NCBI GenBank assembly: GCA_030699625.1
Contig: JAUYLU010000017.1
Span: 1-12,545 of the forward strand
Length of the DNA stretch: 12,545 nt
Origin: a bacterium
Lineage (GTDB): Bacteria; Patescibacteriota; Minisyncoccia; Phycocordibacterales; VMEP01
Direction: 5' to 3'
The notes beneath the pieces were generated by a model, which saw nothing but the letters and a program-made list of their open reading frames with translations, ran no database searches and was not told the DNA's origin. Shown in pieces: positions 8,812-10,447 of this stretch (positions are counted from its first letter, which is position 1; the number at the start of each line of letters is the position of its first letter). The position numbers were made by a program, and so were the translations under genes.

Positions 8812-8822
8812 GGAGCGAATGG

Positions 8823-8991
8823 TCCTGTTAGAGATAATCCTTTGACGGGTGGGGCCAGAGAAGCAATAGTTCGCTATGCGAGTCAAAGGATTACGGGAAC
8901 GCGCAGATGACAAAAACCGAGAAAGATCTAAAAACTAATTTTAAGGAAGCGCCCTCCACGCATAGAGCAAGCGTTCCCTATCTCTAACAGG
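8823..8991 (+). mobile_element. Trefoil element copy A, inserted at the scpA start codon
   Basis: A 169-bp element bounded by terminal inverted repeats (TCCTGTTAGAGATA at 8823-8836; TATCTCTAACAGG at 8979-8991) and flanked by the direct repeat ATGG (8819-8822 and 8992-8995, the latter the scpA start). As RNA or single strand it folds as a three-way junction. P1 pairs 8823-8836 with 8979-8992. P2 pairs 8837-8846 with 8882-8891 and carries an upper hairpin 8863-8879 with a TTCG loop. The linker is TAC (8892-8894), and P3 pairs 8895-8902 with 8971-8978, flush against P1. Inside P3 is an A-rich core (8921-8939) shared with copy B. P1 pairs with the first bases of the scpA ATG. I know no named family with these features. 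A MITE-like transposon, a splicing RNA or a cis-regulatory leader are all possible. Confidence 0.72.
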
Positions 8992-9732
8992 ATGGAAACC
9001 GAGTACAAAGTGCGGACGCATGCGTTTGAGGGGCCGCTCGAGCTCCTCCTCGAGCTCATCGAAAAAAAGAAGCTCGGCATCAATGACATCTCGCTCGCGC
9101 AGGTGACCGACGATTTCATCGCTTACCTGAAATCGCTCGGTGCCGTCCCTCTTTCCTATACCGCGAATTTCATCATGACGGCGGCTTCGCTCGTCCTCGT
9201 CAAATCGAAATCGCTCCTTCCCTCGCTCGCGCTCTCGAGCGAGGAGGAAAGCAATATCGACGAGCTCAAGCGGCGGCTTCTCCTCTATCAACTCTTCAAG
9301 GGAGTGGGGGAGAAGCTGCGCGCCCTCTACGGCGCGCTTCCGCTCATGAAGCGGCCGTACCCGAAAATAACGCCGCTCTTCGTTCCGGACGATAAGCTCA
9401 CTGTCGCGCTCCTCCGGACAAGCATGGACGACGTGTTCGCGAACGTGCCGCAAAGAGAAAAGGCGCCGGAGGTAATGCTCAAAAAAGTGCTCTCCATCGA
9501 GGAGATGATCGACACGCTCACCGAGCGGGTCGAAGCCGCCATGAGGCTCTCCTTCAGGGACTTCTCGAAGCACGGCAAAGGAAGGAGCAGGGACGAGAAG
9601 GTCTATGTCATCGTCTCGTTCCTCGCCATCCTCGAGCTCGTGAAGCAGGGTGTGGTCGAAGCGAAACAAGATAGGGAATTCGATGACATCGAAATCGCCT
9701 CCGCACGCGAGCAGGCCGCCGTACAATCATGA
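8992..9732 (+). CDS. scpA: Segregation and condensation protein A (kleisin)
   Basis: A 246-aa ScpA, the kleisin that bridges SMC heads and binds ScpB to form the bacterial condensin used in chromosome compaction and segregation. The N-terminal domain shows FEGPLELLLELIEKKKLGINDISLAQVTDDFIAYL in pieces typical of ScpA (12-46), then an helical region (ASLVLVKSKSLLPS). The C-terminal winged-helix end has VIVSFLAILELVKQGVV (near 207-223). The length is normal. The ATG at 8992 abuts the right end of trefoil element copy A, with no spaced Shine-Dalgarno. The TGA (9730-9732) overlaps the ATGA that forms the left flank of copy B. The gene thus lies between two copies of the element, whose arms could also pair across it. 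Confidence 0.95.
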   Translation: METEYKVRTHAFEGPLELLLELIEKKKLGINDISLAQVTDDFIAYLKSLGAVPLSYTANFIMTAASLVLVKSKSLLPSLALSSEEESNIDELKRRLLLYQLFKGVGEKLRALYGALPLMKRPYPKITPLFVPDDKLTVALLRTSMDDVFANVPQREKAPEVMLKKVLSIEEMIDTLTERVEAAMRLSFRDFSKHGKGRSRDEKVYVIVSFLAILELVKQGVVEAKQDREFDDIEIASAREQAAVQS

Positions 9733-9884
9733 TCCTGTTAGAGATAAGCCTTTGGCAATGGTACGTTGCCAAAGGCTTACGGGAACGTATACAGTACCTA
9801 AACATGGGAAAGAAATTTAAAACTAATCGTAGGGGAAACGTTCTCCAGGCAGAGGACAAGCGTTCCCTATCTCTAACAGGATGA
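9729..9884 (+). CDS. Possible 51-codon ORF spanning element copy B
   Basis: An ATG inside the left ATGA (overlapping the scpA stop) opens a 51-codon frame that runs through the whole element and stops at the TGA overlapping the scpB ATG. The product would be basic, starting MILLEISLWQWYVAKGLRER and ending AEDKRSLSLTG. In copy A the equivalent frame is in register at both ends (KGLRER and SKRSLSLTG can be read) but is broken by at least five stops, the first after 8 codons. It is probably a by-product of the repeat sequence. If translated, it would keep ribosomes coupled from scpA to scpB. Confidence 0.2.
   Translation: MILLEISLWQWYVAKGLRERIQYLNMGKKFKTNRRGNVLQAEDKRSLSLTG
9733..9880 (+). mobile_element. 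Trefoil element copy B, inserted at the scpA/scpB junction
   Basis: A 148-bp second copy with the same ends (9733-9746 and 9868-9880) and flanked by ATGA (9729-9732 and 9881-9884, the latter the scpB start). P1 pairs 9732-9746 with 9868-9882 (15 bp). P2 pairs 9747-9758 with 9766-9777 around a 7-nt loop. The linker is again TAC (9778-9780), and P3 pairs 9781-9788 with 9860-9867, including one G-T wobble. Compared with copy A, P2 keeps pairing through two compensatory changes (T-A to G-C and A-T to G-C), and its upper part is quite different. The A-rich core is at 9808-9827, followed by a hairpin 9832-9837/9841-9846. A TACAAT at 9722-9727 could act as a -10 just upstream, without a clear -35. 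Confidence 0.72.
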
Positions 9885-10447
9885 CCCTCCCGCTCGAATC
9901 ACGCATCGAGGCGGTCCTTTTCTTCACCACCGACGCCATCTCCGTGGGGAAGCTCGCGAAGCTCCTTAATGCCGGAAAAGAAGAAATCGAAACGGCGCTC
10001 GGAGCGCTCGAGGCATCGCTTCTCGGGCGCGGGCTCTCGCTCATGCGAGAAGGCGACGAAGTGATGCTCGCGACCGCCTCCGAAATGGCGCCTTTCCTCG
10101 AGGCGCTCTCCAAAGAGGAGCGCGAGGGCGAGCTTTCCAAGGCATCGGTCGAAACGCTCTCCATCATCCTCTACAAAGACGGTGCCACCAAGAGCGAGAT
10201 CGATTATATCCGCGGCGTGAATGCCGCCTATATCCTCCGGGCGCTCGAGATCAGGGGGCTTGTGGAGAAGAAACAAAATCCGAAGGACGGACGGAGCCAT
10301 CTCTATGTGCCTACGTTCGATCTCTACGCCCATCTCGGCCTCAAAAAGAAAGAAGAGCTTCCCGATTACGCGCGCCTCCGCGAATCGCTTGCCGCCCTCA
10401 TGGAAGAAGGGATGCGCGATGAGAACGGCGAACCAAGAACCCCATGA
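9881..10447 (+). CDS. scpB: Segregation and condensation protein B
   Basis: A 188-aa ScpB, the dimeric winged-helix partner of ScpA in the SMC-ScpAB complex. It opens with the family pattern ESRIEAVLFFTTDAISVGKLAKLL and has the strongly conserved second half LSKASVETLSIILYKDG, TKSEIDYIRGVNAAYILRAL and RGLVEKKQNPKDGRSHLYVP, with FDLYAHLGL near the end. Length and domain order are normal. The ATG abuts the right end of element copy B. The 3' end overlaps the carboxypeptidase start by 4 bp (ATGA), so translation of the two is probably coupled. Confidence 0.95.
   Translation: MTLPLESRIEAVLFFTTDAISVGKLAKLLNAGKEEIETALGALEASLLGRGLSLMREGDEVMLATASEMAPFLEALSKEEREGELSKASVETLSIILYKDGATKSEIDYIRGVNAAYILRALEIRGLVEKKQNPKDGRSHLYVPTFDLYAHLGLKKKEELPDYARLRESLAALMEEGMRDENGEPRTP

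Follow-up and report, generated by a model that had tools for sequence, protein, structure and literature searches.

Short structured copies before scpA and scpB in a Patescibacteria genome probably belong to a mobile element family which targets start codons and has a GIY-YIG-encoding full-size form

Two short structured elements precede scpA and scpB in a 12,545-nt stretch of bacterial DNA (assembly GCA_030699625.1, contig JAUYLU010000017.1; Patescibacteriota, Minisyncoccia, Phycocordibacterales), which is called the window below, and they are probably short, non-autonomous members, similar to miniature inverted-repeat transposable elements (MITEs), of a mobile element which inserts at start codons. 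Copy A is located at 8823-8991 and copy B at 9733-9880, both on the forward strand, as obtained from reading of the sequence, repeat search, folding and covariation. An earlier note, made from the window alone, had described two trefoil copies at consecutive gene starts, and their coordinates were confirmed in the sequence; what it had missed is that a duplicated start codon plus one base brackets each copy. Copy A is flanked on the left by ATGG at 8819-8822, an upstream start codon and one base (assigned from the sequence, the ATGRR rule of the family and empty sites), and on the right by ATGG at 8992-8995, the start codon of scpA (8992-9732; PF02616, E 5.9e-21). Copy B lies between ATGA at 9729-9732 and ATGA at 9881-9884, the start codon of scpB (9881-10447; PF04079, E 2.3e-36), all these features being on the forward strand and the flanks of B and the right flank of A being read directly from the sequence. 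The left ATGA of copy B includes the stop codon TGA of scpA (9730-9732), suggesting that scpA and scpB once overlapped in a stop-start ATGA which the element has split. As judged from sequence comparison, insertion at start codons with duplication at ATGRR, the first five bases of the gene, is shown for this family, and so is the maintenance of pairing by compensatory change, in arm P1 throughout, in arm P3 inside the coding sequence and in arm P2 in the subfamily of the own genome.

In the two window copies the P1 end arms (8823-8836 with 8979-8992 in A, 9733-9746 with 9868-9881 in B) are perfect inverted repeats over 14 bp, or 15 bp in B, where identical repeats of 13-14 bp had been claimed. 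The three-way junction was borne out as well. P2 (8837-8846 with 8882-8891 in A, 9747-9760 with 9764-9777 in B) and P3 (8895-8902 with 8971-8978 in A, 9781-9788 with 9860-9867 in B) were found on the forward strand as described, and the minimum-energy folds form this junction at -55.6 kcal/mol in A (z -3.9) and -64.2 kcal/mol in B (z -9.2), with none of 200 shuffles folding as well in either copy. All four base pairs that had been named as compensatory changes in P2 are present in the sequence. The note had matched the copies to no named class, and the Rfam scan of the window gave no family at gathering score, the seven matches up to E 5 all being far below it.

The genome of the window is a 571-kb draft with a completeness of 87.8%, and it contains 66 pieces matching copy B and 28 copies of the exact right end TCTAACAGGATG, against 0 for the reversed control. 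At least two interior types with common ends are present, and the copies precede the genes of ribosomal proteins S8, S11 and S13 and of MurG, among others (products read from the translations). Covariation was counted in 11 own-genome copies of the window's type without large inserts. P1, P2 and P3 are paired in 99.7% of 319 cells and 9 of the 29 pairs have changed on both sides, neither value being reached by any of 500 shuffles; the pairing of P2 and P3 is therefore found in further copies, although relatedness inflates all pairing counts and the rows of the own genome share ancestry. The target duplication of this subfamily is mostly 4 nt. As the general layout of the element, the trefoil holds for the own-genome subfamily, but in the wider set P1 is general, P3 is kept in coding copies, and P2 was not found to be general. 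P2 was rejected as a general feature because by eye, with no count made, it is unconserved in the full-size copies of other genomes.

Several variants of the copies were seen. In the own copies L004, L005, L011, L022 and L031 a GC-rich extra hairpin (GGCAAGCGAGGACGCGCG...) is located between P3 and P1, with a short repeat on both sides of it (TATTTC in L022, L011 and L031); L053 has a similar sequence on its own, upstream of the element. In L009 and L010 another element-like hairpin, which has TCCTGTTAGAAG ends of its own, stands in the position of P2. Several neighbouring genes are often each preceded by copies, such as rnf-like genes in L366, ftsW- and murG-like genes in L230, ribosomal genes in L044, and scpA and scpB in the window, the names being read by eye with no comparison to chance.

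The presence of further copies in related genomes had been set beforehand as a test, and 81 of the 297 genomes of the order contain the pattern ATGRNTCCYGTTAGA, up to 25 times each, whereas the reversed pattern gave one match in the whole set. Most of these genomes are drafts and near-perfect ends were required, so that decay is under-counted. The loci collected contain 166 distinct CCYGTTAGA/TCTAACRGG end pairs, with an ATG exactly at one end in 159; because loci were often collected by a left- or right-flank pattern, this count is clean only for the flank not used. The remaining seven include nested hairpins (L048, L057), and the rest are decayed or differently flanked. An upstream ATG was found within 9 nt in 145 of the 159 copies and was absent in 14. 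The two flanks of these 145 copies match over 6 nt in 34, 5 nt in 94, 4 nt in 16 and 3 nt in 1, i.e., over 5-6 nt in 128, and since the sixth matching base is the T that starts the element, the duplication is 5 nt (ATGAA, ATGGA, ATGAG and a few others). Isolated filled sites gave a similar picture, with flanks matching over 5-6 nt in 210 of 235. The inverted ends of P1 are 12 bp long in this wider set, and their variable positions 3, 10, 11 and 12 pair in 149-151 of 152 copies, in a search that required the exact core of the ends. Beyond the own genome the exact right end was matched 12 times, and 4 of these matches (L058, L060, L061, L062) appeared on reading to be due to chance. In the combined genome and viral loci, a good right end with an ATG was present for 101 of 157 left ends, most viral ones being without.

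Direct evidence for insertion with duplication comes from empty sites in congeners. In genome G207, elements precede def and hpf (names read from the proteins). The def site is a single ATGAA in the congeners G262, G238 and G128, and the hpf site is a single ATGAA in G262 and G128, G238 being element-free but with ATGCG. The stretch of G207 that was compared has three elements, of which def and hpf are covered here, the third lying outside the homology. Tandem elements, in which one copy sits at the duplicated ATGRR of another, were seen in L166, L167, L169, L176, L206, L224 and L228.

Copies with both ends were also found in Omnitrophota, Planctomycetes, Phycisphaerae, Sedimentisphaerales, Saccharibacteria, Kazan and a few viral contigs, and some copies outside the order are hairpins of only 39-67 nt. 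The GIY-YIG profile matches all 10 of the 10 genomes examined from these other groups. In three viral contigs (L412, L418, L423) gene starts carry short copies of 42-59 nt, which makes spread by viruses possible.

The preference for start codons was examined by scanning the genome contigs for ATGAATCCCGTTAGA without conditioning on starts or right ends, which gave at least 116 stretches. Hundreds of 15-base chance matches are expected there by our estimate, so only copies with a right end were counted, and loci without a recognised right end were omitted. Among the matches listed, 110 copies have the right end (one mismatch allowed). A frame of at least 40 codons adjoins 98 of them; the neighbour is another element in 2 and a short frame in 4, and 6 have no adjacent ATG. 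For some of the six the right end was false, better ends being found on recheck. One of the four short frames lies against an element with a different spelling, and another reads like the beginning of a broken gene. The same DNA contains ATGAA at 142 non-coding positions that are not starts versus at most 198 possible starts, the latter being an over-count; if all ATGAA sites were equally open, about 40% of the copies would be expected away from starts. In the logo built from 235 isolated sites, ATGRR appears with only weak signals elsewhere and no upstream motif. A bias to starts in spite of other common ATGAA sites and such a motif-poor logo indicates that the element is confined to start codons by something else than the local DNA sequence, or by strong selection.

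Leaderless promoters were considered as the target and were rejected as a general rule, because most sites have no -10-like box and the logo has no upstream motif. A -10-like box 5-14 nt before the ATG was found at 34 of 121 element sites versus 44 of 419 control starts, and Shine-Dalgarno-like 4-mers at 7 of 121 versus 62 of 419, the control starts being first-ATG guesses. The enrichment of the box is in line with many leaderless genes but is not general. In-frame read-through or stop-and-restart was likewise rejected as a general rule, since the distance between the two ATGs occurs in all phases (65, 43 and 37 of 145). Among the 145 short copies of the order, 35 have the end of the frame from the upstream ATG at -4, 8 have it at +4 and 1 has it at +19, the others being taken up below. 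Copies outside Patescibacteria (n=10) differ: the upstream frame ends at the downstream ATG in 7, runs into the gene in 2 and meets an early stop in 1. It ends exactly at the downstream ATG in those 7 of 10 versus 20 of 54 copies from Patescibacteria or unnamed sources, and a Shine-Dalgarno-like 5-mer in the right arm is present in 5 of 10 versus 3 of 54, in samples which are small and partly related. Judging by these frames, stop-and-restart or read-through may operate outside Patescibacteria.

The full-size form of the element is about 280 bp and encodes a single-domain GIY-YIG nuclease of about 86 amino acids. The full-size copy G000:C59:7133-7419 has 284 nt and encodes 86 amino acids with the GIY-YIG domain (PF01541, 58.1 bits versus a cut-off of 22.6). 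This frame is the only gene seen between the ends in the copies read, where no known transposase was seen, and no search aimed at DDE transposases was made. Of the 14 full-size copies that have an upstream ATG, 10 have their nuclease frame open and in phase from this target ATG (MNPVR...), and L077 has no ATG of its own at the domain start. At the other end, 15 of 27 frames use as their stop the TGA in the duplicated ATGA, which adjoins the downstream start. As the frame spans from ATG to ATGA, the left repeat codes for the first residues and the right repeat for the last ones (SLTG-stop). Codon positions 1, 2 and 3 differ by 0.28, 0.22 and 0.52 among 19 frames of 86 codons, and the low values at positions 1 and 2 indicate that the protein is under constraint. 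The same full-size layout is present in three Omnitrophota copies (L436, L439, L441) and one Phycisphaerae copy (L440), whose last codons contain a Shine-Dalgarno-like run 9 nt before the downstream start. By sequence the nearest solved structures are 1zg2 (UPF0213 protein BH0048, E 4.1e-10) and 1ywl, with a weak match to SLX1 (E 0.006-0.008), and the element protein scores 22.4 and 25.3 bits with the group I intron endonuclease model, below the cut-off of 56.05.

The relation of the window copies to this form was found in their cores. The core of copy B (9789-9859, forward strand) aligned to the second half of the G000:C59 frame better than all 500 of 500 shuffles, whereas the core of copy A aligned weakly, being equalled or surpassed by 29 of 500 shuffles. 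The assignment of remnants is based on this shuffle-tested alignment, since MAFFT put the 5' part of the full-size copy in the wrong place. With a core that is a remnant of the frame, the window copies, or B at any rate, resemble full-size copies with an internal deletion. The A-rich core that had been listed as a shared feature is present (9808-9827 in B), but it is part of the frame remnant, clearly in copy B and weakly in copy A.

Arm P3 pairs the RKR codons with the KRFLS codons near the end of the frame. When synonymous shuffles were compared, 24 of 26 full-size copies paired better (p<0.05; mean z -3.8), the two exceptions being Omnitrophota copies, so the choice among synonymous codons keeps P3 paired. 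Among 24 copies with 13 pairs each, the cells comprise 286 Watson-Crick, 5 G-T, 7 A-C and 14 other combinations, and the four variable P1 positions have 7 G-T and 6 A-C. Pairing as RNA would favour G-T over A-C, and their near equality suggests pairing as DNA, or copying from end to end in DNA. The earlier note had left open whether the folded strand is RNA or transposition DNA. Transposition DNA is plausible, the wobble counts of the two wide sets favouring DNA and those of the own genome favouring RNA. The interpretation in the note was partly supported but incomplete, because a mobile element with target-site duplication and a GIY-YIG-encoding full-size form was missed.

The natural candidate for the mover is the GIY-YIG frame, since no other gene was seen between the ends, and we infer that its product acts as the mobility enzyme on a folded DNA strand. 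The protein would make a staggered cut at ATGRR and would move full-size and short forms alike, with folded single-stranded DNA or a cruciform as its substrate or intermediate. The insertions would be tolerated because they preserve the start and stop codons, and some of the copies outside Patescibacteria would also bring a ribosome site. Elements were present in 12 of 17 genomes with a strong GIY-YIG match versus 7 of 43 without, in a tally of 60 genomes made by hand with one left-end pattern and a threshold of 1e-20, five strong-match genomes being without the pattern. A close full-size relative was found in 15 of 24 element-rich genomes. The chances seem about even for the full proposal: a transposon with a GIY-YIG gene of 85-95 amino acids as its only gene would insert at start codons as such, borrow the start and the stop-start overlap of its target, and leave behind a start codon and, in some Shine-Dalgarno hosts, a ribosome site; it would move via a folded DNA strand that is paired even in the coding sequence, and would spawn hairpins of about 40-150 nt, dozens per genome.

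A number of observations weigh against this proposal. To our knowledge, no GIY-YIG enzyme acts as a transposase. Nine of the 24 element-rich genomes have no close full-size copy, and Y1 transposases, of about 220-250 amino acids in element-rich genomes, are present in 24 of 25 element-rich versus 13 of 25 element-free genomes, the latter picked among genomes without ATGRNTCCYGTTAGA with several omitted for strong GIY-YIG matches or low completeness. The nuclease frame is broken or out of phase with the upstream ATG in 4 of the 14 full-size copies (L073, L121, L239, L242). In L439 and L441 the right start is GTG and the left one ATG, so the duplication is imperfect. An early end of the upstream frame was found in 101 of the 145 short copies, so the proposal does not account for how the gene behind them is read, and the own-genome set (n=11) has 11 one-sided wobble cells versus 1 unpaired, as expected of RNA.

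The Y1 counts would suit an IS200/REP-type transposase that moves the palindromic copies in trans as folded single-stranded DNA, in the manner of REPINs, with the GIY-YIG gene as a passenger, and the element ends do pair as a single strand would. Y1 transposition, however, makes no target duplication, while here the duplication varies with the site (ATGAA, ATGGA or ATGAG on both sides) and the empty sites are exact; moreover the GIY-YIG frame is conserved as a protein and fitted to the codons of the target, and we regard this explanation as unlikely. Inverted ends and a fixed 5-nt duplication, as found in this family, are typical of DDE cut-and-paste elements, and an unseen transposase of that type moving both the short and the GIY-YIG-bearing copies would also account for the element-rich genomes without a close full-size copy. 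With the GIY-YIG frame as the only one seen between the ends, within the limits of the search given above, a DDE mover has a similarly low probability. A reverse transcriptase acting in trans was rejected as a general need: RVT_1 is present in 13 of the 25 element-rich genomes, and the own draft genome gave no match to it.

The copies could also be read at the RNA level. GIY-YIG nucleases are common in group I introns, the flanks are identical, so that exact excision would give back the original start, P1 closes right at the ATG and the copies precede essential genes. All of this would suit a small intron or a translational bypass element, with the stretch of RNA from one start codon to the other spliced out or jumped over. 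Such an element is nevertheless quite improbable: copies go down to 39-67 nt, almost none lie away from gene starts, interiors differ among subfamilies, the wide sets have no wobble preference, the window has no Rfam intron match, and some copies have Shine-Dalgarno-like runs before the downstream start, which would be needless after splicing or skipping. A structured sequence in one orientation directly before start codons also resembles a riboswitch-like leader regulating the genes in cis, but the target duplication, empty sites, unrelated downstream genes, tandem copies and lack of an Rfam match make this extremely improbable.

As compared to known systems, the element resembles MITEs in its short non-coding copies with inverted ends and target duplication, its longer coding parent and its many copies per genome, but its coding partner is a GIY-YIG nuclease with no known transposase seen, its target is a start codon and its ends covary. 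REPIN/RAYT systems likewise have folded repeats of about 100 bp in many copies, with Y1 genes in the same genomes, and differ from the element in its target duplication, fixed position at start codons and GIY-YIG full-size form. HEARO inserts at ATGA/GTGA. The HEARO/IsrB systems of the IS200/IS605 group share with the element a nuclease gene and a folded element near ATGA-type sites, and IsrB recognises NTGA beside its target (PMC9581776). The element differs in having GIY-YIG instead of RuvC/HNH, a target duplication and copies down to about 40 nt, with no large guide RNA seen; no IsrB/IscB-type nuclease is in the element, whose frame is GIY-YIG, and no Rfam family reached gathering score in the window. 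Free-standing or intron-borne homing endonucleases of the I-TevI type also place a GIY-YIG nuclease (PF01541) in a mobile unit, but the element uses many unrelated ATGRR sites instead of one homologous site, and no extra DNA-binding domain is reported for it. Neither was a group I intron catalytic core matched by Rfam at gathering score in the window, and copies of only 39-67 nt exist. UPF0213/SLX1-like proteins, the closest solved structures by sequence, were solved as stand-alone or host proteins, and the structure search output mentions no mobility for them.

The nearest parallel in similar hosts is a 2024 survey of insertions in the rRNA genes of the candidate phyla radiation (CPR). GIY-YIG insertions there fit neither intron group, stand beside short frameless insertions and are placed by the authors outside homing, as far as the accessible text goes (PMC11270868). 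GIY-YIG in the same kind of host and short frameless forms alongside are thus common to both, but those insertions are inside rRNA genes, and the accessible text does not describe targeting of start codons (PMC11270868). The element is described in none of the accessible parts of PMC1564403, PMC11270868, PMC12455944 and PMC9581776, and a literature search, with preprints and most subscription journals outside its reach, found no description of it. If the GIY-YIG protein alone drives the element, the transposition chemistry and the element size would be without parallel known to us. No motif apart from ATGRR accounts for the start codon as the target, and how an element finds translation starts would become testable. 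It could also explain part of the large number of small GIY-YIG genes in Patescibacteria, and gene starts and leaders are possibly misannotated where copies sit in these genomes.

Other GIY-YIG frames were met in the course of the analysis. L083, L084, L085 and L087 (CCCTGTTAAATAA-like) and L093 and L098 (AAACTTTTTA-like) carry GIY-YIG frames with other end repeats, and these are perhaps further families of the same kind of element. Distant GIY-YIG frames adjoin the 5' ends of tRNA-like genes in L086, L091, L092, L096, L099 and L256, several of them between direct repeats of the tRNA start of about 9-14 bp (12 bp in L086, 13 bp in L091 and L096). In L097 a GIY-YIG frame is located within an apparent 16S rRNA gene, with a 13-bp inverted repeat at its flanks. 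The tRNA- and 16S-associated frames may be cousins of the element with other targets.
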